Source: an uncultured Leucothrix sp.
Lineage (GTDB): Bacteria > Pseudomonadota > Gammaproteobacteria > Thiotrichales > Thiotrichaceae
Direction of reading: 5' to 3'
DNA length: 8,602 nucleotides
Assembly: GCA_938004025.1 (NCBI GenBank)
Contig: CALKXC010000328.1
Location: 1 to 8,602 of the forward strand
Shown piece by piece: positions 1 to 8,602 of this stretch (the first letter of the stretch is position 1; each line of letters begins with the position of its first letter). The position numbers and the translations under genes were made by a program. A model generated the notes under the pieces. It ran no database searches and was not told where the DNA came from. It saw nothing but the letters and a program-made list of their open reading frames with translations.

Positions 1-423
1 AGCTCGCTTTTTTATAGCATCGAAAATGTTTATGTTGATAAGGGCATAGAGCAAACAATGGATGTGCGAGAGTTATTATTCGGTGCCAATTTAGTTGGCG
101 TCACGCTCCAGTTTCCAATCGTGATGTGGTTGGGGGTAGCAGAGCCGGTCACTTGGTTGTTCACTACACCGGGCTTAGCAACGGCGCTCACAGCCATTGT
201 AAGTGGAATTGCTTATGCCTTGTTTATGATTGTCATCCGCTCTTCAGGTTCGGTTTTCGCTAGTCAATGTGCTTACATTATTACGATATCAGGCGTCGCT
301 TGGGGTATCGTTTTGTTTGATGAGCAGCACAGTATTTGGGCTTGGTTGTCGATCGGTGTCATGTTGCTAGGGTTGTTTTTGGTAACTCCTAGAAATCAAT
401 CTGAGGTTGTTGATGGCAAATAA
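1..423 (+). CDS. EamA/DMT-family membrane transporter, C-terminal part (5' end outside window)
   Basis: The frame is open from the first base, so this is the C-terminal part (about 140 residues) of a gene that starts before the window; the ATG at 58 is internal, because the codons before it read as normal protein (FYSIENVYVDKGIEQ). Long hydrophobic stretches separated by short polar loops, and a phrase like SGIAYALFMIVIRSSGSVFASQCAYI followed by a last helix rich in Leu/Val, match the second EamA repeat of drug/metabolite transporters, which are inner-membrane exporters of about 300 residues with ten helices. About four helices are visible, then a short charged tail. The substrate cannot be read from sequence. 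The next gene overlaps its end by a few bases, so the two are probably translated together. The EamA-like fold call is fairly sure; the function is open. Confidence 0.75.
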   Translation, partial: SSLFYSIENVYVDKGIEQTMDVRELLFGANLVGVTLQFPIVMWLGVAEPVTWLFTTPGLATALTAIVSGIAYALFMIVIRSSGSVFASQCAYIITISGVAWGIVLFDEQHSIWAWLSIGVMLLGLFLVTPRNQSEVVDGK

Positions 424-601
424 ATTATCGATATTATTCGCATTGATAGGCATCTTTATCTGCCTGTACAGTCTCGTTTTCTCAGATCACATTGTTATGT
501 TCGGGCTTTTATCAATTGTGGTATCTGCCGTCATCTGGAGTATAAGCGCTAGACAAACAATCCGAGTCAAACTACATTGGCTTTCTAATATAGCCAAATA
601 A
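413..601 (+). CDS. Small two-helix membrane protein, unknown function
   Basis: A 62-residue protein that I do not recognise. It has two hydrophobic segments (about residues 6-25 and 29-47), then a basic tail ending in NIAK, so it should sit in the inner membrane as a hairpin. The frame can be opened at a TTG at 407, but the ATG at 413 is preferred because GAGG at 403-406 lies six bases before it. It overlaps the end of the exporter gene by 11 bases, which suggests translational coupling and possibly a partner role for that transporter. The glutathione S-transferase gene begins 29 bases after its stop, with no terminator between. The reading frame is probably real given the start signal and clean helices, but its role is not known. 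Confidence 0.6.
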   Translation: MANKLSILFALIGIFICLYSLVFSDHIVMFGLLSIVVSAVIWSISARQTIRVKLHWLSNIAK

Positions 602-630
602 ACACCGATATAAACAACAAGGAATCATTA

Positions 631-1242
631 ATGCCTAAGCTAAAACTAACCTATTTCGACATCAACGGGGGGCGCGCAGAAGTGGCTCGTCTTGCGCTAA
701 TCATTGGTGATGTACCTTTCGAAGATGAGCGAATCTCATTTGAGCAATTCGGGGCAACGCGTGGTTCAATGCCATTTGGTGCTGTACCGGTTATGGAAGT
801 CGACGGTGGGGCATTAACTCAGTCTTCTACTATCAGTCGCTATGTTGGCAAGCTCACCAATCTATATCCAGAAGATCCGTGGCAAGCAGCACTTTGTGAT
901 GAAGTCATGGATGTGATTGAAGACTTGGATGGACAGGTTTTTACTCAGATACAGTTAACTGATGAGCAGAAGCAAACATTCCGTGAGGGACTAGCTGAAG
1001 GGGCGATTAAAACGACGCTTGTTCGATTAGAAGAGTATCTTACTAAGCGTGGTGGCGAGTATATGGTTGATAATCGTTTAACGGTTGCTGATCTTAAAGT
1101 GTTTGAATGGGTTCGTTTGTTAGAGTCTGGGATGTTGGATCATGTACCGGTTGAGCTTGCTAAGCAGGAAGCGCCTTTGTTGGTCGCTCATGCTAAGAAA
1201 ATTAGCAACCTTCCAAAGATAGTTGAGTACTATAAAGCCTAA
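631..1242 (+). CDS. Glutathione S-transferase family protein
   Basis: A complete 203-residue cytosolic GST. The N-terminal thioredoxin-like domain (about 1-78) has Tyr8 in LTYFDINGGRAEVARL, the catalytic position that activates glutathione thiol in the Tyr-type sigma/mu/alpha classes. It also has the cis-proline (AVPVMEVDG, Pro53) and the Gln64-Ser65 pair that holds the gamma-glutamyl group. The helical C-terminal domain follows, with the folding N-cap box at T151-V-A-D154 (LTVADLKVF). The Tyr8 and TQSSTISRY wording resembles eukaryotic-style sigma GSTs more than the common bacterial beta class. AAGGA at 619-623 precedes the ATG at a normal distance. It may be co-transcribed with the two membrane-protein genes upstream. 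Substrate is unknown; detoxification or isomerisation are both possible for the family. Confidence 0.88.
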   Translation: MPKLKLTYFDINGGRAEVARLALIIGDVPFEDERISFEQFGATRGSMPFGAVPVMEVDGGALTQSSTISRYVGKLTNLYPEDPWQAALCDEVMDVIEDLDGQVFTQIQLTDEQKQTFREGLAEGAIKTTLVRLEEYLTKRGGEYMVDNRLTVADLKVFEWVRLLESGMLDHVPVELAKQEAPLLVAHAKKISNLPKIVEYYKA

Positions 1243-1271
1243 ACAAGACTTTATAGTCAGATGTTACAGGC

Positions 1272-1301
1272 CTCCTCATTAAAGTGCGCTTTAGTGAGGA
1301 G
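1272..1301. repeat. 13-bp hairpin after the GST gene, without a T tract
   Basis: CTCCTCATTAAAG and CTTTAGTGAGGAG flank a four-base loop (TGCG); all 13 positions pair in RNA read from the + strand if one U-G pair is counted. It begins 30 bases after the GST stop. No run of T follows on either strand, so it is not a standard intrinsic terminator. It could be a 3' end protecting structure, a Rho-dependent end, or a protein-binding dyad. Confidence 0.7.
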
Positions 1302-1313
1302 ACGATCCAAAAT

Positions 1314-1347
1314 AGGGATGCAGCTATGTTCATAGCGTCTAATCCCT
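1314..1347. promoter_or_regulatory. Nested dyad upstream of the sigma-54 promoter, candidate activator site
   Basis: An inner perfect palindrome GCTATG-TT-CATAGC (1323-1336) sits inside outer arms AGGGAT (1314-1319) and ATCCCT (1342-1347). Its centre lies about 78 bases before the predicted start of transcription, which is a usual place for the upstream site of a sigma-54 activator. The binding protein is not known and no such activator gene lies in the window. Seen: the symmetry. Inferred: the role. Confidence 0.45.
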
Positions 1348-1381
1348 TCGCAAAAGGCTCCGTTTAAAGTGCTCTCTTAAC

Positions 1382-1397
1382 TGGCACGCAACTTGCA
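1382..1397 (+). promoter_or_regulatory. Sigma-54 (RpoN) promoter for the ABC importer operon
   Basis: TGGCACGCAACTTGCA matches the -24/-12 consensus (TGGCACG-N4-TTGCA) at every defined base, with GG at 1383-1384 and GC at 1395-1396 in the required phase. Transcription should start near 1408. The promoter therefore overlaps the first codon (TTG at 1393) of the longest ATPase reading frame, which rules out that start. It implies ATP-dependent activation by an enhancer-binding protein, as is common for nitrogen- or aromatic-compound-responsive operons. Confidence 0.88.
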
Positions 1398-1398
1398 G

Positions 1399-1426
1399 TA
1401 TTACTCAGTAAGTACACTGAGTAATA
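1399..1426. promoter_or_regulatory. Perfect 11-bp inverted repeat over the transcription start, candidate operator
   Basis: TATTACTCAGT (1399-1409) and ACTGAGTAATA (1416-1426) are exact reverse complements around a six-base spacer. Counting from the predicted start near 1408 it covers about -9 to +18, where a bound repressor would block open-complex formation; in RNA it could also fold as a leader hairpin before the ATPase start codon. The word TTACTCAG recurs at 5350-5357, just upstream of paaX, so both promoters may share a regulator. The last point is inference. Confidence 0.55.
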
Positions 1427-1440
1427 AGCGTGGCACAACT

Positions 1441-2181
1441 TTGATCAACGATAAGATCGCAGTATCAATCACCGGCATGAGCAAGTGGTACGATGACTTT
1501 CAAGTTTTGAAAGATATTGATCTCTCCGTTGCTTTTGGCGAACGCATCGTAATTTGTGGGCCTTCCGGATCGGGCAAATCAACACTCATTCGTTGCTTGA
1601 ACCATCTTGAAGAACATCAAAAAGGCTCGATTACTGTCAACGATATTTCATTGTCTCCTGGGATGAAAAATCCTGAGAAGGTGCGTCGTGAAGTTGGCAT
1701 GGTGTTTCAGTCATTCAACTTGTTTCCTCACTTAACCATTCTGGAAAACTGCATGCTTCCCCAGCAAAGGGCCTTAAAGCGAACTAAAGCTGAGGCGCGT
1801 GAAATAGGGATGCGTTTTCTAGAGCGTGTAAAAATTCCTGAACAATCAGATAAATATCCTCGTCAATTATCCGGTGGCCAGCAGCAGCGTGTTGCCATTG
1901 CTCGTGCGCTCTGTATGGAGCCAAAAATCATGTTGTTTGACGAGCCAACCTCAGCTCTCGATCCTGAAATGGTGAGTGAAGTACTCGATACTATGATCGA
2001 ACTAGCAGAGTCAGGAATGACCATGCTTTGCGTCACTCACGAAATGGGTTTCGCTCGCAAGGTTGCCGATCGAGTCATCTTTATGGATGCTGGAAAGATC
2101 GTTGAGAGTAGCGATCCAGAAGCATTTTTCAGCAATCCGCAGCACCCTCGTACGAAAGAATTTTTAGGTCAAATCTTATGA
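1441..2181 (+). CDS. Polar amino-acid-type ABC importer, ATP-binding subunit (GlnQ/AapP family)
   Basis: Cytoplasmic ATPase that drives the importer encoded by the next three genes. In a 246-residue form it shows Walker [10 protein letters not shown] (40-48), Q-loop Q90 in [12 protein letters not shown], signature LSGGQ (143-147), Walker B with D167-E168 in [12 protein letters not shown], and the switch histidine H200 in VTHE. The sequence is of the PAAT (polar amino acid) type. The frame is open from a TTG at 1393, but that codon is part of the sigma-54 promoter, upstream of the predicted transcript start. The TTG at 1441 ([13 protein letters not shown]...) gives the usual family N-terminus; the ATG at 1477 would cut into the first beta strand region. 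No good ribosome site precedes 1441, so the exact start is uncertain. The permease gene follows 12 bases after the stop. Confidence 0.93.
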
Positions 2182-2193
2182 GTAAGGTCAGCT

Positions 2194-2877
2194 ATGTTTG
2201 ATTTTCGCTTCTATGAGATATGGCGCTCAGAAGAGTTTATAAGTGCTCTTTTATCTGGTGCATTTAACAGTTTCTGGCTTTCTGCTGTGGGTGGAATGCT
2301 GGGTTTTTGCTTTGGTTTAATGCTCGCAATTAGTCAGGATAAAACCGTGTTTTGGGGCGTTCGGTATACCGCCCGAAGCTACATTGAAATAGTACGTAAT
2401 ACGCCATTTATTGTTCAGCTGTTTTTTGTGGCATTTGGGCTGCCCCTACTGTTTGATTATCAATGGAGTTTCTTTGCTTCTGCCTTATTAGCAATCACTT
2501 TGAACTTCTCAGCCTACTTTGCTGAGATTGTCCGTTCTGGGATCGACACGATTGATAAAGGTCAGCTGGAAGCAGCCAAATCACTTTGCTTTAGTAAGCG
2601 TCAAACGCTATTCGATATCATCCTTCCCCAAGCTTTAGTCAAAGTATATCCCTCATTGACGAGCCAGTTTGTATTCTTGTTTTTGACCACGGGGCTGGTC
2701 TCTGAAATTAGTGTTGAAGATTTAACGTGGGCTGGCCGCTTTATCTCAGATAGAAACTTTCGCGACTTCGAAGTATTTATTGTACTCACTGTTATTTACA
2801 TACTTCTGGCTTGGTTATTTAAGCTTATTTTACAGGGTATAAAGCGCTTAGCCTTTCCTTGGTCGGTGAATAAATGA
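2194..2877 (+). CDS. Polar amino-acid-type ABC importer, permease subunit 1
   Basis: A 227-residue inner-membrane permease of the HisM/GlnP type. It has an N-terminal helix (about 22-48), the conserved YIEIVRNTPFIVQLFF block (63-78) and further helices to about 212. The EAA coupling loop, which docks on the ATPase, runs from EAAKS at about 126 to LPQA at 147. Family permeases work as pairs, and the next gene is the natural partner. AAGG at 2185-2188 precedes the ATG by six bases. The ATPase stop lies 12 bases upstream, and the final four bases overlap the next start (ATGA), so translation of the two permeases is coupled. The ligand cannot be read from the permease. The family call is safe. 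Confidence 0.94.
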   Translation: MFDFRFYEIWRSEEFISALLSGAFNSFWLSAVGGMLGFCFGLMLAISQDKTVFWGVRYTARSYIEIVRNTPFIVQLFFVAFGLPLLFDYQWSFFASALLAITLNFSAYFAEIVRSGIDTIDKGQLEAAKSLCFSKRQTLFDIILPQALVKVYPSLTSQFVFLFLTTGLVSEISVEDLTWAGRFISDRNFRDFEVFIVLTVIYILLAWLFKLILQGIKRLAFPWSVNK

Positions 2878-3554
2878 CCGAGTTATTGAATAGCCTATTT
2901 GGCCCGTTTTACGGAAATATGATTGGTCTTCTACTGTCAGCAACGCAGTGGACTATTTACCTGTCTCTAGCCGCCTTTATTGGGGGAGGGTTGTTGGGGT
3001 TAATGCTGACAGTTTTAAAAATTAGCCCGTTAAAACCGCTGCGCTGGTTTGCCACGGCTTACATCTGGTTGTTTCAGTCGATACCGCTATTGATGTTGCT
3101 GTTTTTACTTGGCCTTGGTATCCCCGTCTTTTTCCAGATTGATGTGCCTGCTTGGTTAGCTGCCGGTACAGCACTCACTTTATTTACTAGTGCCTATATG
3201 TCAGAAGTCTGGCGAGGGGCTCTTGAAAGTATCCCACAAGGACAGTGGGAAGCTGGCAAAGCTGTGGGGCTAACCTTTATACAAAATCTGTGGTGGATCA
3301 TTGCACCACAAGCATTACGCATTGCAACCCCTTCAACGGTAGGTTTCATGATTCAAGTCATTAAAGGAACTTCGATGGCTTACATCATCGATTACAACGA
3401 TTTGATGCGTTGGGGTAAGAAAATTGCAAACTCACAATTAGACGGAGCGGAGCCTTTTATTGTGTTCCCAATCGTCGCCTTAATTTATTTCTGCTTATGC
3501 TTTCCATTGTCACTTTGGTCAAAGCATTTGGAGAAAAAAATGGTACTGACTTAG
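2874..3554 (+). CDS. Polar amino-acid-type ABC importer, permease subunit 2
   Basis: A 226-residue inner-membrane permease, the second half of the channel. It shows the family block YIWLFQSIPLLMLLF (63-77), the EAA coupling loop from EAGKA (126-130) to APQA (144-147), and the late conserved phrase VIKGTSMAYIID (162-173). Where many relatives have R-(N/G)-TP in the first block, this one has FQSIP, so it is clearly a different paralogue from subunit 1 rather than a recent copy. Its ATG lies inside the stop of subunit 1 (ATGA, four-base overlap), which forces tight co-translation. A small inverted repeat overlaps its stop codon before the binding-protein gene. Confidence 0.93.
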   Translation: MTELLNSLFGPFYGNMIGLLLSATQWTIYLSLAAFIGGGLLGLMLTVLKISPLKPLRWFATAYIWLFQSIPLLMLLFLLGLGIPVFFQIDVPAWLAAGTALTLFTSAYMSEVWRGALESIPQGQWEAGKAVGLTFIQNLWWIIAPQALRIATPSTVGFMIQVIKGTSMAYIIDYNDLMRWGKKIANSQLDGAEPFIVFPIVALIYFCLCFPLSLWSKHLEKKMVLT

Positions 3555-3558
3555 TACC
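3542..3558 (+). repeat. Short hairpin between permease and binding-protein genes
   Basis: GGTACT (3542-3547) and AGTACC (3553-3558) pair around a five-base loop and overlap the permease stop codon (3552-3554). There is no T tract. In ABC importer operons a hairpin here can protect or separate the more abundant binding-protein message; with six base pairs this one is weak and may be incidental. Confidence 0.3.
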
Positions 3559-3586
3559 GCTTAATCACTTGAATCAATCGATAAAT

Positions 3587-3591
3587 GGAGA
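3587..3591 (+). promoter_or_regulatory. Ribosome binding site that sets the binding-protein start
   Basis: GGAGA lies five bases before the ATG at 3597. An in-frame ATG at 3585 overlaps this site and has no purine-rich motif of its own, so 3597 is the likely start. Confidence 0.7.
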
Positions 3592-3596
3592 GAAAA

Positions 3597-4397
3597 ATGT
3601 TAAATATTTTACGACGTATCGCTGCATCTTCTTTACTTGCTGCTGCGACAGTAGCGCTCCCGTTCAATAGCGTACTGGCAGATCAACTGACTGATATTTT
3701 GGGTAAGGGCACCATTAAAATTGGTGTACCTGAGAACTTCCCTCCCTTTGGTTCAGTTGGCAAAGATTTTAAACACGTTGGTTATGATGTTGATGTGGCT
3801 GAGCTTGTGGCTAAAGACTTAGAAGTGAAGCTTGAATTAGTTCCGATTACATCAAAGCAACGTATCCCTTATTTATCGTCTGGCAAAGTTGATCTAGTGA
3901 TCTCTTCGATGGGCGCTAACCCTTCTCGCGCGAAGTCCATTTGGTTCTCTCATGCTTATGCGCCTTTCTTTTCGGCAGCGTTTGCTAGCAAAGATTTGGA
4001 CATCAGTTCACCGGCAGATTTAGTGGGTAAAAAAATCGGAGTGACAGGTGGAACCATTGAAGATTTGGAGCTTAGCAAGAGCTTACCAGAAGGTGCTGAC
4101 ATGAAGCGATTTGGTGATAATGCAGCAACCATTTCTGCTTTTGTGTCTAAGCAAGTGGATGTGCTAGTTACCGGAAATACTGTTGCAGCTAAGGTGGGAA
4201 TGGATAAGCCTGAGCTTAAACTTGAAACTAAGTTTATTGTACGTCAATCACCGGCATTTATCGGTGTGAAAGCAGGTGAAATGAATATGTTGCAGTGGGT
4301 GAATGTGTTTGTTCTTCACAAAACGCTAGGCGGCAAGTTAGATGAGCTATCGCAGAAGTGGTTGGGGCAGAAGTTGCCAACATTACCGACGCTTTAA
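3597..4397 (+). CDS. Periplasmic substrate-binding protein of the ABC importer (PBP family 3)
   Basis: A 266-residue secreted receptor that delivers ligand to the importer. The N-terminus has a basic LRR, a hydrophobic core and an AxA-like site (VLA before DQ, about residue 28), so a Sec signal peptide is clear; no lipobox Cys is present. The fold is that of the amino-acid-binding family (KIGVPENFPPFGSVG; VGYDVDVAELVAK; DLVGKKIGVTGGT). The carboxylate-binding Arg is kept (Arg111 in NPSRAKSIWFS), but where glutamine- and histidine-binding relatives carry an Asp for the ligand alpha-amino group, this protein reads VDVLVTGNTVAA, with Gly193. The preceding loop (SSMGANPSR) also differs from the usual GMTITPER. 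Ligand is therefore uncertain: an amino acid held differently, or a carboxylate without an alpha-amino group. Its stop interlocks with the paaX stop on the other strand. Confidence 0.92.
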   Translation: MLNILRRIAASSLLAAATVALPFNSVLADQLTDILGKGTIKIGVPENFPPFGSVGKDFKHVGYDVDVAELVAKDLEVKLELVPITSKQRIPYLSSGKVDLVISSMGANPSRAKSIWFSHAYAPFFSAAFASKDLDISSPADLVGKKIGVTGGTIEDLELSKSLPEGADMKRFGDNAATISAFVSKQVDVLVTGNTVAAKVGMDKPELKLETKFIVRQSPAFIGVKAGEMNMLQWVNVFVLHKTLGGKLDELSQKWLGQKLPTLPTL

Positions 4398-4419
4398 TTA
4401 GGAAAAAACCGTTGGTGGT
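4382..4419 (+). repeat. Weak hairpin spanning the two convergent stop codons
   Basis: Bases 4382-4391 can pair with 4410-4419 in the + strand RNA (ten pairs, three of them G-U, around an 18-base loop), enclosing both interlocked stops. No T tract follows, so it is not a classical terminator; the core is ACCGACG with CGTTGGT. It is the only structure I see that could end or protect the importer message here. Confidence 0.25.
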
Positions 4420-5332
4420 AGCTTGTTTCTGGTTCAGAAAAAGCGCCGCCTTCGGTCTCACAAACTTCAGCAAAATACTCATCAGCTTTTGGGCAAATTA
4501 GCTGGTACAAGCTCCCAACTAATTGTCTCGCACGAAAGCTTGCCGCCTCTTCAGAAACCAAGGCATCAGGAAGCTCTGGCTCCTTTAGCAAAATATGCCT
4601 AAACCGGTGAATCAACAACGTCTTTACTAAAAAGCACAGCTGAGGATTAAGTGATTCTTCTTGCCGCGCAGCCTCAAAAATCCCTTGAAAGTCATCAATC
4701 AGCGCTTCGTATTCACGCTCGCTGCCCGCTAAATCAAAACAATCACTAATCAACGAATTAGTAACTGGAACCTGTGCTGGGGCAGCGGCACTAGCTTTCA
4801 AAACAGCAATATGATCTTTCAAGTTAAGTTCACTAATAACACGCTGTACTTCGACTAAATCAGCCATTGGGTGTGCATAGACACCCGCTGTAATCCTGCT
4901 AAAACCTAACCAAAGCAACTCTTTACGAAGGGTTTCTCGGTGTTCATTTGTAAGATCACCCAGTGATGTCAGCACTAATCGCCATTGCTTATCCCAAGCC
5001 AATGGCTGAGTAGCATAAATACGTTTTGAAGCACTCACAAACTGACGAAAAGCACGGTCTGTCAGCGAGTAATAACTTCGCCTCCCAACTTGTTTTGAAA
5101 CCAGTATTTGCTTTTCAGAAAGTCGAAACACCGAGGTACGAACTAAGCGTTGATTGATACCCAAAGGCTCTACAAGCTTAATTAGGCTGCCAAGCCATAT
5201 GCTATCCCCACGAGGGCAGATAGTATCGCCGTAAATACTGACCAACAAAGAATTCGCATGCATCGGGCGTGTCTGGGCAAAGTTCTCAATCAAGATGTTT
5301 GAGAACTTTGCAAAACTGTTTTGGCTACTCAT
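4394..5332 (-). CDS. paaX: PaaX-family transcriptional repressor of phenylacetate catabolism
   Basis: A 312-residue regulator, close to the usual PaaX length (about 310-320). The N-terminal winged helix-turn-helix is evident: SLLVSIYGDTICPRGDSIWL, then LGINQRLVRTSVFRLSEKQIL, then the wing GRRSYYSLTD, followed by the family phrase WDKQWRLVL and a C-terminal ligand-sensing part. In known cases PaaX represses paa genes and releases DNA when phenylacetyl-CoA binds, which fits its place opposite paaI-paaK, whose ligase would make that signal. The frame opens at a TTG at 5344, but the ATG at 5332, with GAG seven bases before it, is preferred. A perfect 13-bp inverted repeat lies within codons 8-19. 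The 3' end interlocks with the importer binding-protein gene. Confidence 0.92.
   Translation of the reverse strand: MSSQNSFAKFSNILIENFAQTRPMHANSLLVSIYGDTICPRGDSIWLGSLIKLVEPLGINQRLVRTSVFRLSEKQILVSKQVGRRSYYSLTDRAFRQFVSASKRIYATQPLAWDKQWRLVLTSLGDLTNEHRETLRKELLWLGFSRITAGVYAHPMADLVEVQRVISELNLKDHIAVLKASAAAPAQVPVTNSLISDCFDLAGSEREYEALIDDFQGIFEAARQEESLNPQLCFLVKTLLIHRFRHILLKEPELPDALVSEEAASFRARQLVGSLYQLICPKADEYFAEVCETEGGAFSEPETSYHQRFFPN
5277..5311. repeat. Perfect 13-bp inverted repeat inside the start of paaX
   Basis: GCAAAGTTCTCAA (5277-5289) and TTGAGAACTTTGC (5299-5311) are exact reverse complements around a nine-base spacer. On the paaX message it begins 21 bases after the A of the preferred ATG and would form a 13-bp hairpin in the first codons. 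It could be an operator for autorepression or an RNA element that limits translation. The repeat is seen directly; the role is inferred. Confidence 0.75.
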
Positions 5333-5357
5333 GCTTGTGCTCAAAAGGCTTACTCAG

Positions 5358-5367
5358 AGTGATACAT
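5358..5367. promoter_or_regulatory. Operator-like word AGTGATACAT, copy 1 (near paaX)
   Basis: Exact copy of the word found at 5439-5448. It lies a few bases downstream of the start of transcription predicted from a candidate paaX promoter (-35 CTGAGA, 5402-5407; -10 TATCAT, 5379-5384, read on the minus strand). The TGAT-C core resembles the TGATTC core of the published E. coli PaaX site, so it may be a PaaX site used for autoregulation. TTACTCAG (5350-5357), shared with the importer promoter, abuts it. Confidence 0.4.
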
Positions 5368-5378
5368 CGGATGGCTAA

Positions 5379-5407
5379 ATGATAACATTTTTCGCTTCTA
5401 TTCTCAG
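5379..5407 (-). promoter_or_regulatory. Candidate paaX promoter (proximal)
   Basis: Read on the minus strand: CTGAGA (5402-5407, four of six -35 bases), a 17-base spacer, and TATCAT (5379-5384, five of six -10 bases). Transcription would start near 5372, about 40 bases before the paaX ATG. A second weaker pair, TTAAAG (5454-5459) and TATAAA (5432-5437) with a 16-base spacer, lies further upstream. Both are judged by eye only. Confidence 0.35.
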
Positions 5408-5438
5408 AAGCTTTACGGCGAAGGTTAGTAATTTATAA

Positions 5439-5448
5439 AGTGATACAT
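5439..5448. promoter_or_regulatory. Operator-like word AGTGATACAT, copy 2
   Basis: Second exact copy of the ten-base word, in direct orientation 81 bases from copy 1. It falls inside the spacer of the distal candidate paaX promoter. Its GATACA core (5442-5447) also forms the left arm of a wide dyad with TGTATC at 5473-5478. Confidence 0.4.
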
Positions 5449-5478
5449 AAAATCTTTAATTATTAAAAATACTGTATC
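5442..5478. promoter_or_regulatory. Wide symmetric control site between paaX and paaI
   Basis: GATACA (5442-5447) and TGTATC (5473-5478) are inverted with centres 31 bases apart, close to three helical turns. Nested nearly on the same centre is the palindrome TTTAAT-T-ATTAAA (5455-5467). The arrangement suits two regulator dimers on one DNA face. The right arm overlaps the -35 position of the best paaI -10 candidate (TATATT, 5496-5501), so binding there could repress paaI-paaK. PaaX is the obvious candidate, by position only. Confidence 0.4.
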
Positions 5479-5501
5479 TAATTGATGCGCTGAGGTATAT
5501 T
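5473..5501 (+). promoter_or_regulatory. Candidate paaI-paaK promoter
   Basis: TATATT at 5496-5501 is a five-of-six -10 match and would start transcription near 5508, giving a leader of about 64 bases. The base positions 17 upstream (5473-5478, TGTATC) are a poor -35 and coincide with an operator-like arm. Weak, by eye. Confidence 0.28.
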
Positions 5502-5558
5502 TAAAACATAAAAAGCTGACTGAATTCGTTTAAGATTGTCGGTGTTAAATACAGAAAT

Positions 5559-5563
5559 AAAGG
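5559..5563 (+). promoter_or_regulatory. Ribosome binding site that sets the paaI start
   Basis: AAAGG lies eight bases before the ATG at 5572. The longer frame from a TTG at 5536 would place this site inside the coding region and adds twelve residues not usual for the family. Confidence 0.65.
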
Positions 5564-5571
5564 CTACTGTC

Positions 5572-6009
5572 ATGAGCGAATCAAAGGTTACTCCCGATGC
5601 TTGTAGTGCGGCAATGCACGAGAATGACCATGCTACAAAAGCACTTGGCATGAGGATAATCAGCACAACCCTTGGTGGATCTGTTGTATCGATGAAAGTC
5701 CGTCAAGATATGTTGAACGGTTACGGCAGTTGCCATGGCGGCATGATTTTTTCACTAGCGGATACAGCATTTGCGCATGCCTGTAATAGTGGGAACAAGC
5801 CAACAGTCGCTTCTGGTTGCACTATTGATTTCATCGCGCCGGGTAAAGAAGGCGATACGCTGACGGCACGAGCATCAGAGCGTTCGCGCAGCGGTAAAAC
5901 CGGTATTTACGATATCGAAGTGTTTAATCAAAATGAGCAGTTGATCGCGACATTTCGTGGGCGTTCCTACCAGTTGAAAGGTAGTATTGTTCCGGAAGTC
6001 ATAGATTAG
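5572..6009 (+). CDS. paaI: PaaI-family hotdog-fold acyl-CoA thioesterase
   Basis: A 145-residue cytosolic hotdog thioesterase, near the usual PaaI length of about 140. The diagnostic phrase is CHGGMIFSLADTAFAHACN: His55-Gly-Gly and Asp64, the position of the catalytic Asp in studied PaaI enzymes. It is followed by VASGCTIDFIAPGKEGD and a late beta strand ending in FRGRSYQLKG. PaaI hydrolyses phenylacetyl-CoA and ring-hydroxylated derivatives, releasing CoA when the pathway stalls. It lies directly before paaK, with a gap of 74 bases and no terminator, and divergent from paaX; so it should share repression with paaK. The ATG at 5572 is chosen over a TTG at 5536 because of the AAAGG site. The family call is strong; the exact aryl substrate is inferred from context. 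Confidence 0.91.
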   Translation: MSESKVTPDACSAAMHENDHATKALGMRIISTTLGGSVVSMKVRQDMLNGYGSCHGGMIFSLADTAFAHACNSGNKPTVASGCTIDFIAPGKEGDTLTARASERSRSGKTGIYDIEVFNQNEQLIATFRGRSYQLKGSIVPEVID

Positions 6010-6083
6010 CTGACAAGCAAGATAATACTAAAAAGCATCATTAATTTGGATGCGCGTTGTAAATTTATTGAGGAGATCAAACC

Positions 6084-7385
6084 ATGAGTACTTTCCCTAG
6101 TGGTGGTTTAAGTTCAGTTGAAAATGCTAGTAAGGATGAGCTTCAGGCGCTTCAGTTACAGCGCATGAAATGGACTTTGGAGCTCGCTTACAACAACGTA
6201 CCCATGTACAAAAAGAAGTTTGATGATGCCGGTGTGCATCCTGATGATTTAAAACAGCTTTCAGATATCAGCAAATTCCCTTATACAACTAAAGAAGATC
6301 TTCGCGATAACTATCCATTTGGCATGTTTGCAGTCCCTCGTGAGCAGGTTGCTAGAATCCATGCTTCAAGTGGAACCACGGGTAAACCGACCGTTGTTGG
6401 TTATACGATTGGAGATGTGGATCGCTGGGCAGAGCTTGTGGCACGTTCGATTTGGGCGGCAGGGGGTAAAGCTTCGGATATGGTCCACGTCGCTTACGGT
6501 TACGGTCTGTTTACGGGTGGTTTAGGGGCTCACTATGGCGCTGAGAAGTTGGGTTGTAGCGTTATCCCAATGTCTGGTGGAAATACTGAAAAGCAAGTAC
6601 AGCTCATTCAAGATTTCAAACCCGATATCATCATGGTGACACCGTCCTACTGTTTGAATATTGCGGATGAGTTCGATCGTCAGGGTATTGATCCTAAAAC
6701 TTCTTCGCTGCGAGTTGGTATCTTTGGCGCTGAACCTTGGACTAATTCTATGCGTGAAGAAATCGAAGTGCGTATGGGCATGGATGCGGTCGATATTTAT
6801 GGCTTGTCTGAGATCATGGGTCCCGGTGTGGCACAGGAGTTTGTGACGACCAAAGATGGCCCAACCATTTGGGAGGACTTTTTCTATCCTGAGATAGTTG
6901 ATAGAGAAGTGCTGACGCCAATCGCTGATGGCGAAGAAGGGGAGTTGGTGTTTACTACGCTGAGCAAAGAAGCGATGCCAGTGATTCGTTATCGTACGCG
7001 TGATTTAAGTAAGTTGATGCCGGGTAGCGAGACAGTGATGCGCCGTATGGAAAAAATCACGGGGCGTTCGGATGACATGATGATTATCAGGGGAGTGAAT
7101 GTATTCCCAACGCAGATTGAAGAGCAGATCTTTAAAATAGTTAACCTATCGCCGCATTATCAGTTAGAAATAAGCCGAGATGGCAACATGGATAACCTGA
7201 CGGTTAATGTTGAAGCACGCAGTAATGACCTTGATGAAACAGCAAGAACAGAAGCGGCCAAAGCATTGCAACAGCAAGTTAAGAATATGGTGGGTGTTAC
7301 CGCTAAAGTAAATGTTAAAGCAGAAGGTGAGGTGGCACGTTCACAGGGTAAAGCGCAGCGAGTGGTTGACCTTAGAAAGTCGTAA
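6084..7385 (+). CDS. paaK: Phenylacetate-CoA ligase (AMP-forming)
   Basis: A 433-residue adenylate-forming ligase, matching the roughly 430-440 residues of PaaK. It activates an arylacetate, normally phenylacetate, with ATP and CoA to give the aryl-CoA thioester, AMP and pyrophosphate. Visible motifs: phosphate loop SSGTTGKPT (95-103), YGYGLFTGGLGAHYG (138-152), the adenine-binding YGLSE (239-243), RYRTRDL (302-308), the hinge block GRSDDMMIIRGVNVFP (327-342), and the C-terminal SQGKAQRVVDLR with the catalytic-type Lys423. GAGGAG at 6070-6075 lies eight bases before the ATG. It follows paaI and ends at a strong terminator, so this unit is only paaI-paaK. Related ligases use indoleacetate or hydroxyphenylacetate; sequence inspection cannot separate these. 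Confidence 0.93.
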   Translation: MSTFPSGGLSSVENASKDELQALQLQRMKWTLELAYNNVPMYKKKFDDAGVHPDDLKQLSDISKFPYTTKEDLRDNYPFGMFAVPREQVARIHASSGTTGKPTVVGYTIGDVDRWAELVARSIWAAGGKASDMVHVAYGYGLFTGGLGAHYGAEKLGCSVIPMSGGNTEKQVQLIQDFKPDIIMVTPSYCLNIADEFDRQGIDPKTSSLRVGIFGAEPWTNSMREEIEVRMGMDAVDIYGLSEIMGPGVAQEFVTTKDGPTIWEDFFYPEIVDREVLTPIADGEEGELVFTTLSKEAMPVIRYRTRDLSKLMPGSETVMRRMEKITGRSDDMMIIRGVNVFPTQIEEQIFKIVNLSPHYQLEISRDGNMDNLTVNVEARSNDLDETARTEAAKALQQQVKNMVGVTAKVNVKAEGEVARSQGKAQRVVDLRKS

Positions 7386-7401
7386 TCACAGTTGTTACAG
7401 T

Positions 7402-7442
7402 AAAAAAAGCCCATAACACTTGAAGGTGTGATGGGCTTTTTT
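7402..7442. terminator. Bidirectional intrinsic terminator between paaK and the moaD-like gene
   Basis: A run of seven A (7402-7408), GCCCAT (7409-7414) pairing with ATGGGC (7431-7436), then TTTTTT (7437-7442). After one mismatch the stem continues with ACACT (7416-7420) against GGTGT (7425-7429), one pair being G-U, around a TGAA loop. With A and T tracts on both sides it works for both strands: 17 bases after the paaK stop and 11 bases after the end of the moaD-like gene. Confidence 0.93.
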
Positions 7443-7452
7443 AGGTTAAGTG

Positions 7453-7701
7453 TTAACCGCCTTTAACAGGTGGAAACATGATGACCTCATCGCCATCTTT
7501 GAGCGGGGTACCATAGTCTTCTTCTTGAATTTTCTTGCCATCGAACATAATAAAGAACGGCCTGTCGTCTGCTAAACCCACTTTAGCAATGACGTCATTT
7601 ATAGTCGCCCCTTCATTAAGCTGCAAATCACAGCGAGAAAACTCGCCTGCAGTAGGTAAAAACACCCGCAGGCCACCCAACATTTTTAAAGAAATCTTCA
7701 T
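7453..7701 (-). CDS. MoaD/ThiS-like sulfur-carrier protein paired with the aldehyde oxidoreductase
   Basis: An 82-residue beta-grasp protein ending in FPPVKGG. The C-terminal Gly-Gly is the tail that is adenylated and thiocarboxylated in MoaD and ThiS so that sulfur can be handed on, for MoaD to make the dithiolene of molybdopterin. Typical features are the hydrophobic KISLKML start, the central LNEGATINDVIAKVGL helix and KDGDEVIMFPPV before the tail. The frame opens at a TTG (7704), but the ATG at 7701 is preferred; it begins nine bases after the stop of the oxidoreductase gene, so the two form one transcript. MoaD-like genes beside tungsten aldehyde oxidoreductases are known and suggest a carrier dedicated to that enzyme's pterin. 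A general MoaD function cannot be excluded. Confidence 0.88.
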   Translation of the reverse strand: MKISLKMLGGLRVFLPTAGEFSRCDLQLNEGATINDVIAKVGLADDRPFFIMFDGKKIQEEDYGTPLKDGDEVIMFPPVKGG

Positions 7702-7710
7702 CAATTCTAC

Positions 7711-8602
7711 TTATATCAAACCAAGTCGGGACATGGTTGCCTCAGTTGGCATACCTTCGCTATCCCAACCTCGAAGTTCATAATAACTCGGTAGCATCTC
7801 GTCTAACCGACAAACTTGGCCTTCAGCCGTTCCCGAGGTTGCGGGTTCTTCAAGGATACGCTTCGGAAGTGTGTCGTCTGCTTTTCTAAGGCCCGCACGA
7901 ATGTTAAAAACACGCTCAATATTCCAAATACGCTCACCCGTTTGATTAAAACGCTCCATGTCCCAGTCGCCTTCACAAGCTGCATTAATCAGTTCGCAAT
8001 AATCTTCCATGGTCCAGCCTGCACCACCAGGGAATAGGCAAAGGCCACTAGAGTCAATACTTGCGACTTGGTCTTGAGAGAATCGAACGATGTCAGCTTT
8101 ACCGGAAGTATCTGTTGTTTCAAAGTCTGAACTATATGGGTCGGCGCGTAGGTGACAGGCGCCACGATTACTAGTGGCATAAGCTAGGCCCATGCCTTGC
8201 ATTCCACGGCCATCATAAGCAGCAAACTCTTGACCTTTTACCGCCATCGATAAGTCGGGGTGACCGTATTTTGCAGTCAGTAGTTTAGAGCCCATCGCGA
8301 CGTCCAGACCAAAACCTTTACCCAGACCAACCATTTCAGTAATTTCACACAAGGCTTCAGCCGACCCAAACTTAAGTTCAACGCCGTCTGTTTGTTCTTT
8401 TGTTATAGCGCCTATCTCATACAGCTCCATTGCCGCAGCGATCGAACCGCCTAGTGAGATAGGATCCATGCCGTATTCATTACACAAGAAACCAGCGTAA
8501 GTAGCGGCATCAATATCATCAACACCACAGGCGGCACCTAGCGCATAGGCTGTTTCATACTCCAGTCCTCCAGAAGCTTTGTGGTATTGAGGCTTGTCTT
8601 TG
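7711..8602 (-). CDS. Tungsten-type aldehyde:ferredoxin oxidoreductase, C-terminal half (5' end outside window)
   Basis: The frame runs to the window edge, giving about 296 C-terminal residues of an enzyme usually near 600. An apparent start at 8487 is a TTG in mid-protein: codons before it continue as family sequence (KASGGLEYETAYALGAACG). The pterin and cluster motif DXXGLC is present as DSSGLC (8038-8055), whose Cys is the last ligand of the 4Fe-4S cluster in this family; the other three Cys should lie upstream, outside the window. Other family blocks are CNEYGMDPISLGGSIA, YDGRGMQGMGLAYATSNRGACHL and GERIWNIERVFNIRAG. Family enzymes oxidise aldehydes to acids at a tungstopterin and reduce ferredoxin or a partner subunit. 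Next to paaK, phenylacetaldehyde or a related arylacetaldehyde is a reasonable substrate, by inference. The metal cannot be read from sequence. Confidence 0.93.
   Translation of the reverse strand, partial: KDKPQYHKASGGLEYETAYALGAACGVDDIDAATYAGFLCNEYGMDPISLGGSIAAAMELYEIGAITKEQTDGVELKFGSAEALCEITEMVGLGKGFGLDVAMGSKLLTAKYGHPDLSMAVKGQEFAAYDGRGMQGMGLAYATSNRGACHLRADPYSSDFETTDTSGKADIVRFSQDQVASIDSSGLCLFPGGAGWTMEDYCELINAACEGDWDMERFNQTGERIWNIERVFNIRAGLRKADDTLPKRILEEPATSGTAEGQVCRLDEMLPSYYELRGWDSEGMPTEATMSRLGLI

Follow-up and report, generated by a model that had tools for sequence, protein, structure and literature searches.

Introduction

The closest described system to the locus analysed here is AorABC of Aromatoleum aromaticum (8c0z), the best solved-structure match to its aldehyde oxidoreductase (AOR; 795 bits). 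In a 2019 description (PMC6365974), bacterial AORs, judged from operons, are all three-subunit enzymes, while archaeal AORs are homodimers; that of Pyrococcus furiosus (1aor) is homodimeric. MoaD genes that strictly adjoin AOR genes, and whose products are thought to serve the tungsten cofactor, have also been published; according to that work, such pairs often have genes for MoeB and a pyridine disulfide oxidoreductase nearby (PMC1779556).

The AOR considered here lies in the same branch as A. aromaticum AorB and shares its catalytic and FeS-ligand residues, and MoaD-like genes also occur in the A. aromaticum operon. Unlike in that operon, neither aorA nor aorC adjoins the AOR gene, and a MoaD-like gene directly follows it. 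As a single AOR gene without adjoining FeS or flavin subunit genes it resembles that of P. furiosus, but the 1aor match is lower (531 bits), and 1aor falls outside the bacterial branch and is without the insert found after the FeS cysteines. The MoaD-like gene stands strictly beside the AOR gene, as in the published AOR-linked pairs, whereas the present pair is alone. The wider pattern is that stand-alone AORs of the AorB type form a clade which co-occurs with aorABC yet is encoded apart from it.

Results and Discussion

The AOR gene of the window and its intact sister genes

The window, i.e., the whole stretch of 8,602 nucleotides that was analysed, is the entire contig C328 of an uncultured Leucothrix sp. 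MAG, which is fragmentary (2.41 Mb, 481 contigs, 57% complete). Features of the window, and coordinates from other sources referred to below, are collected in Table 1. The MoaD-like gene and the AOR gene converge on paaI-paaK over one hairpin, with paaX beyond. The paaX product scored 249 bits with TIGR02277, under the 264.55 cut-off, and passed three Pfam models. The rest of the window holds an EamA-type fragment, a GST gene and an ABC transporter of the amino-acid type, whose ATPase and permeases were identified by eye.

Table 1. Coordinates of features in the window and in related sources
Source	Feature	Position	Strand	Evidence or remark
Window	AOR C-terminus (AorB-like)	7711..8601	-	AFOR_C 371.8 bits; truncated by contig end
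Window	MoaD/ThiS-like protein, 82 aa, GG tail	7453..7701	-	PF02597 35.2 bits
Window	Terminator-like hairpin, bidirectional	7403..7442		Fold energy, both strands
Window	paaK, phenylacetate-CoA ligase	6084..7385	+	TIGR02155 707.5 bits, cut-off 646.3
Window	paaI, thioesterase	5536..6009	+	TIGR02286 156.8 bits, cut-off 118.9
Window	Inverted repeat TGATACA-N25-TGTATCT	5441..5479		Proposed PaaX-type operator
Window	paaX-type repressor	4394..5344	-	PF07848, PF20803, PF08223 over cut-off
L159	Copy of inverted repeat	5923-5961		
L163	Copy of inverted repeat	7579-7617		
L161	Copy of inverted repeat	12520-12558		
L024	H-NOX and hybrid histidine kinase, divergent to AOR	3710-5989		
L025	H-NOX and hybrid histidine kinase, divergent to AOR	1-1710		
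Own C473 (L006)	H-NOX and hybrid histidine kinase, divergent to AOR	1188-3509		
Own C455 (L005)	Operonic aor cluster	1474-7455		
L092	Run with separate stand-alone AOR lineage	5361-10085		By eye
L107	Run with separate stand-alone AOR lineage	1-4588		By eye
L109	Run with separate stand-alone AOR lineage	5335-9824		By eye
L172	Third AOR kind	5722-7566		
L173	Third AOR kind	5215-7059		
L174	Third AOR kind	3363-5469		
L175	Third AOR kind	6524-8368		

The window carries the last 296 of 606 AOR codons, matching positions 88-385 of the 385-position AFOR_C profile. It contains DSSGLC and GERIWNIERVFN, the motifs from which an earlier, sequence-only reading had recognised an AOR family member, and this assignment is confirmed by the profile. 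An intact 606-aa AOR is encoded in the sister MAG G004, with residues 311-606 identical to the 296 of the window and both domains present (AFOR_N, 272.5 bits; AFOR_C, 432.4 bits); the AOR of a second sister MAG, G005, is also intact and is 93% identical over the same 296 residues. The N-terminus lies outside the window, as do the remaining three cluster cysteines, whose absence would have counted against the earlier reading; all were found in the full-length G004 gene. The first 39 codons of the window AOR are on contig C473 of its own MAG. Joining the window AOR to another contig of that MAG, C455, which encodes an AorA-type FeS subunit followed by a paralogous AOR and stops within this paralogous aorB, was considered and rejected, because C473 carries the true N-terminus (39/39 residues identical to the sister gene).

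The same reading proposed a search upstream of the AOR gene for Fe-S and flavin partner subunits. Neither adjoins the intact AOR of G004 or G005; upstream in G004 there are, instead, a divergent H-NOX gene (HNOB, 134.3 bits) and a histidine kinase gene whose product includes a receiver domain, and the same divergent pair is found beside the AOR start on own C473. In all, three MAGs of the genus have H-NOX and hybrid histidine kinase genes divergent to AOR (Table 1); within the clade described below, H-NOX is near 2 of 53 loci (best 80 of 408), the same two that have paaK, in addition to own C473. The H-NOX protein has the YxSxR motif and His102, and NO or O2 sensing by it could control an oxygen-shy metalloenzyme. 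That AOR is oxygen-sensitive by type, as had been assumed, is not a given, since the Aromatoleum AOR is described with low oxygen sensitivity in PMC6365974. A search for the Moco/Wco riboswitch across 12 sources revealed none and returned two RNase P matches only.

The MoaD-like gene begins ca. 10 bp past the AOR stop codon (a TTG start at 7704 is an alternative), and the two genes are likely, as judged from this spacing, to share one transcript. Its product exceeds the PF02597 cut-off of 22.5 bits and ends in GG, so that the MoaD-like partner proposed from sequence stands, although it missed the curated cut-off of MoaD_arch TIGR01687 (33.3 versus 49.5 bits). The hairpin beyond it (-21.6 and -20.0 kcal/mol on the plus and minus strands; z -5.8 and -6.9) could end both convergent transcripts; it is absent from the list of a simple terminator scan.

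A clade of AORs encoded without adjoining aorA and aorC

Scanning the GTDB species genomes with a profile yielded 80 loci, the best 80 of 408 coding stretches, and aorA, aorC and MoaD-like genes were sought at each locus with HMMs built from the same set. A tree of 90 rows, including 8c0z, 9mqx and 1aor, was built by a quick method and rooted on 1aor, after removal of rows that were too short (L033, L034, L005) or represented the same loci as L035 and L036 (L024, L025). Among these best 80 of 408, 53 loci with stand-alone AORs form one clade (SH-aLRT 97), and neither aorA (0/53) nor aorC (0/53) was found beside its AOR genes, with at least 600 bp of upstream flank available in 44/53 and at least 1500 bp of downstream flank in 48/53. 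The clade is nested in the bacterial branch, apart from 1aor, and Aromatoleum AorB lies outside it. These loci are spread over 51 genomes (L072 and L091 share one), which, with the genome of the window, makes 52 carriers; L085 and L094 represent the two halves of a single gene or of a pair within one genome. A MoaD-like gene, always encoding a terminal GG, is within 400 bp of AOR in 45 of the 53 clade loci (best 80 of 408); one of the eight loci lacking it, L085, ends at a contig edge. The neighbours of the stand-alone unit, read by eye, vary by lineage and include mraZ/mraW-like, parC-like and oligopeptide transporter-like genes.

Outside the clade, both aorA and aorC are present at 18 loci, aorA only at six, aorC only at one, and neither at nine (L092, L093, L107 and L109; L097, L106, L110 and L111; L112). 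Partner genes have therefore been lost or moved more than once. We conclude that a clade of bacterial-type AorB without adjoining genes for the AorA wire and the AorC flavin subunit breaks the three-subunit rule, at least in gene order. In an open-licence library, titles and abstracts pointed to no paper that describes gammaproteobacterial AorB lacking AorA.

Several other AOR genes were encountered in the course of this comparison. L092, L107 and L109 contain a separate stand-alone AOR lineage, in a run with CoA-ligase-like, 4HBT-thioesterase-like and GST/isomerase-like genes, which suggests an aromatic substrate. AORs of a third kind, 614 aa long and ca. 56% identical to the window AOR (L172-L175), are likewise without adjoining aorA or aorC; in L174, an 83-aa, possibly MoaD-like frame comes next. 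Two stand-alone clade AORs (L067, L079) are in MAG records titled Klebsiella pneumoniae; they cluster with MAGs of Betaproteobacteria or of unnamed Gammaproteobacteria, and the titles are probably wrong.

A separate aorA gene in most carrier genomes

Of the 52 carriers, 45 encode AorA at another place in the genome (21/24 and 23/27 in two sets, and C455 of the own genome), versus 37 of 274 genomes in a class sample. With the own genome and two carriers taken out, the class sample has AorA in 34/271 (Fisher 5e-26, genomes treated as unrelated). The seven carriers without detected AorA (G004, G005, G050, G069, G077, G079 and G083) are MAGs of 2.0-3.3 Mb.

Twenty stretches around carrier aorA genes comprise 16 with the order aorA-aorB-aorC, three that run into a contig end and a single one without aorB; in L140 and L147, aorA was located by the AorA search rather than among the listed frames. 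Judged by coordinates, aorB directly follows aorA in 40/45 carriers, is gone in two, and is obscured by contig ends in three (G058, G075, G092). In most carriers, therefore, a catalytic subunit is already encoded together with the wire, which counts against the in-trans reading set out below. In the class sample, where AOR was sought in the 36 AorA-bearing genomes other than the own one, aorB comes after aorA in 34/36; the exceptions are G271, at a contig end, and G341, which is the G074 genome with the same contig coordinates.

The operonic aor clusters of own C455 and of L144-L147 are near genes that, by eye, encode cytochrome c, NosR-like and substrate-binding proteins such as occur next to quinoprotein alcohol dehydrogenases. 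These neighbours hint at an alcohol-aldehyde-acid route.

Residues shared by stand-alone and operonic AORs

E331, Y443, H464 and the four FeS cysteines, whose roles are taken from PMC10413684, are invariant in all 53 clade rows (best 80 of 408) and in the G004 gene; the window AOR itself covers only the later part of these residues. No column is at least 90% conserved as one residue in operonic and as another in stand-alone AORs. There are 30 columns that both bacterial types have in common and in which 1aor and 9mqx differ or have no residue; 12 of them fall in residues 285-333. These are near the FeS cluster and near positions 287 and 290; according to PMC10413684, P287 and V290 contact AorC in 8c0z. 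Position 290 is V or I in 53/53 stand-alone rows and P287 is replaced by T in 44 (best 80 of 408). The conservation of residues 285-333 fits a docking face that has been kept; alternatively, common ancestry and the needs of the fold may have preserved them.

Cys399 (8c0z numbering) is present in 96% of stand-alone and 0% of operonic rows, and Cys306 in 77% and 0%, respectively. Stand-alone AORs are also ca. 7-10 residues shorter than A. aromaticum AorB, with the stretch near 467-476 shortened.

Two aor operons without aorB

In G046, aorB is gone and 50 bp separate aorA from aorC, in the interior of a 190-kb contig; the sole AOR match in this genome, a MAG from which genes may be missing, is the stand-alone AOR. 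In G074, where ca. 120 bp lie between aorA and aorC, also inside a contig, a remnant of aorB spanning 29 codons is left in the gap (69% identity; 43.1 bits, compared with at most 22.7 in 200 shuffles). G074 has one more AOR gene, which comes with an AorC-like gene of its own; dependence on the stand-alone AOR would thus be confined to G046. As part of the modular reading of AOR filaments set out below, and with the same reservation, we suggest that in some lineages the stand-alone AOR replaced the operon's own aorB.

The two operons might, alternatively, be decaying remnants, uninformative on which proteins use AorA and AorC. There are two such cases only, both in MAGs, and the visible aorB scar of G074 means that the loss may be recent. 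Yet aorA and aorC are open frames in both genomes, and AorA retains all 16 cysteines. Comparison with the G048 genes gave pN values of 0.07 (aorA) and 0.12-0.15 (aorC) against pS values of 0.68-0.84, i.e., changes are mostly silent, although, G048 being a distant relative, part of this signal may date from before aorB was lost. The junctions of the two operons differ, and the stand-alone AORs of these genomes (L046 and L057) are apart in the tree, which makes two events likely. We regard decay as rather unlikely.

A catalytic subunit that may use AorA and AorC in trans

We lean slightly towards a reading, drawn from gene content and sequence conservation, in which the two-gene unit of AOR and MoaD-like protein is a swap-in catalytic subunit that docks on AorA and AorC from a separate aor operon. 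The reasons for placing the partners in trans are that AorA is encoded elsewhere in most carriers and that two operons keep aorA and aorC without aorB. Various aldehydes would be oxidised to acids at a predicted W-pterin site of the stand-alone AOR, tungsten as the metal and the breadth of the substrate range both being predictions. The electrons would leave through the FeS cluster to AorA, a polyferredoxin wire, then to AorC, the NAD-reducing flavin subunit, and finally to NAD, along the route known from AORAa. The MoaD-like protein would carry sulfur for the pterin, as PMC1779556 proposes for AOR-linked MoaD. The new step is the presumed use of AorA and AorC in trans.

More tentatively, AOR filaments may be modular, with one AorC-capped AorA wire serving at least two kinds of catalytic subunit that are encoded apart, each of which sets the aldehydes that are fed in. 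If this is true, a cell could switch the aldehydes from which the wire is fed through synthesis of a different AorB-like subunit and the cofactor sulfur carrier that belongs to it. If stand-alone subunits dock on a common AorA wire, the decorated nanowire of Aromatoleum, as presented in PMC10413684, becomes a plug-in platform, useful to enzyme engineers; the operons of G046 and G074 make this idea testable.

The stand-alone AOR could also be a homomer that reduces free ferredoxin, like archaeal AORs, its co-occurrence with aorABC reflecting lineages rich in tungsten enzymes. The absence of an adjoining partner gene at all 53 loci (best 80 of 408), the homodimeric state of archaeal AORs (PMC6365974) and the failure to detect AorA in 7/52 carriers agree with this. 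Against it, the AOR lies within the bacterial branch, away from 1aor, AorA is in excess in carriers over the class sample, and aorA and aorC are kept without aorB in G046 and G074. We consider it unlikely.

The paa neighbourhood

Like aerobic paa clusters, the window has paaX, paaI and paaK, and the own genome has a paaABCDEZ-like set on contig C79 (two PaaA/PaaC matches, the other paa genes read by eye), in line with the aerobic pathway proposed earlier. Unlike the genes of such clusters, AOR is convergent here and is without the common inverted repeat described below. The expectation that the AOR/MoaD unit faces paaI-paaK across a shared hairpin was borne out, and since the two gene pairs are convergent, they form separate transcripts. 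This arrangement is kept in the window, G004 and G005. Among seven genomes of the genus searched, PaaK is above the cut-off in G000, G002, G004 and G005, and PaaA/PaaC are present in G000 and G002. In G002, which is 100% complete, paaK is beside paaG/H/J-like genes and there is no AOR there. Beyond the window, paaK is near 2 of 53 clade loci (best 80 of 408), and all of these belong to one genus. The tungstate uptake for which the earlier reading suggested a search is represented in the own genome by a TupA-like protein, 57% identical to one encoded beside an aor operon; such a protein is found in six of eight genomes searched (the query source, G019, included), with or without a stand-alone AOR.

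The central claim of the sequence-only reading, that the window AOR makes the phenylacetaldehyde-oxidising step that feeds PaaK, can draw on the conserved convergent neighbourhood, on the paa genes and TupA-like protein of the own genome and on the part of the Aromatoleum enzyme in anaerobic phenylalanine breakdown (PMC10413684), but it is improbable in view of the separate transcripts, the rarity of paaK near clade loci, the lack of a common operator and the G002 paaK without an adjoining AOR. The link between AOR and phenylacetate is probably just positional, the paa genes being neighbours within one genus and not a metabolic partner.

A 39-bp inverted repeat, TGATACA-N25-TGTATCA, is present at four paa promoters of the genus: one copy lies between paaX and paaI in the window, one precedes paaZ in each of the own genome and G002, and one precedes a paaG-type operon of G002. 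It was not found upstream of AOR in G004, G005 or own C473, even at up to three mismatches. With spacing 25 and at most two mismatches (a limit chosen because the three-mismatch scan was near chance), there are four matches in 98,248 bases, all at those paa sites, compared with 0.28 expected and at most two in any of 60 shuffles that preserved base content only; the count is not independent, because the motif was first read off those same promoters. The repeat is a candidate PaaX operator.
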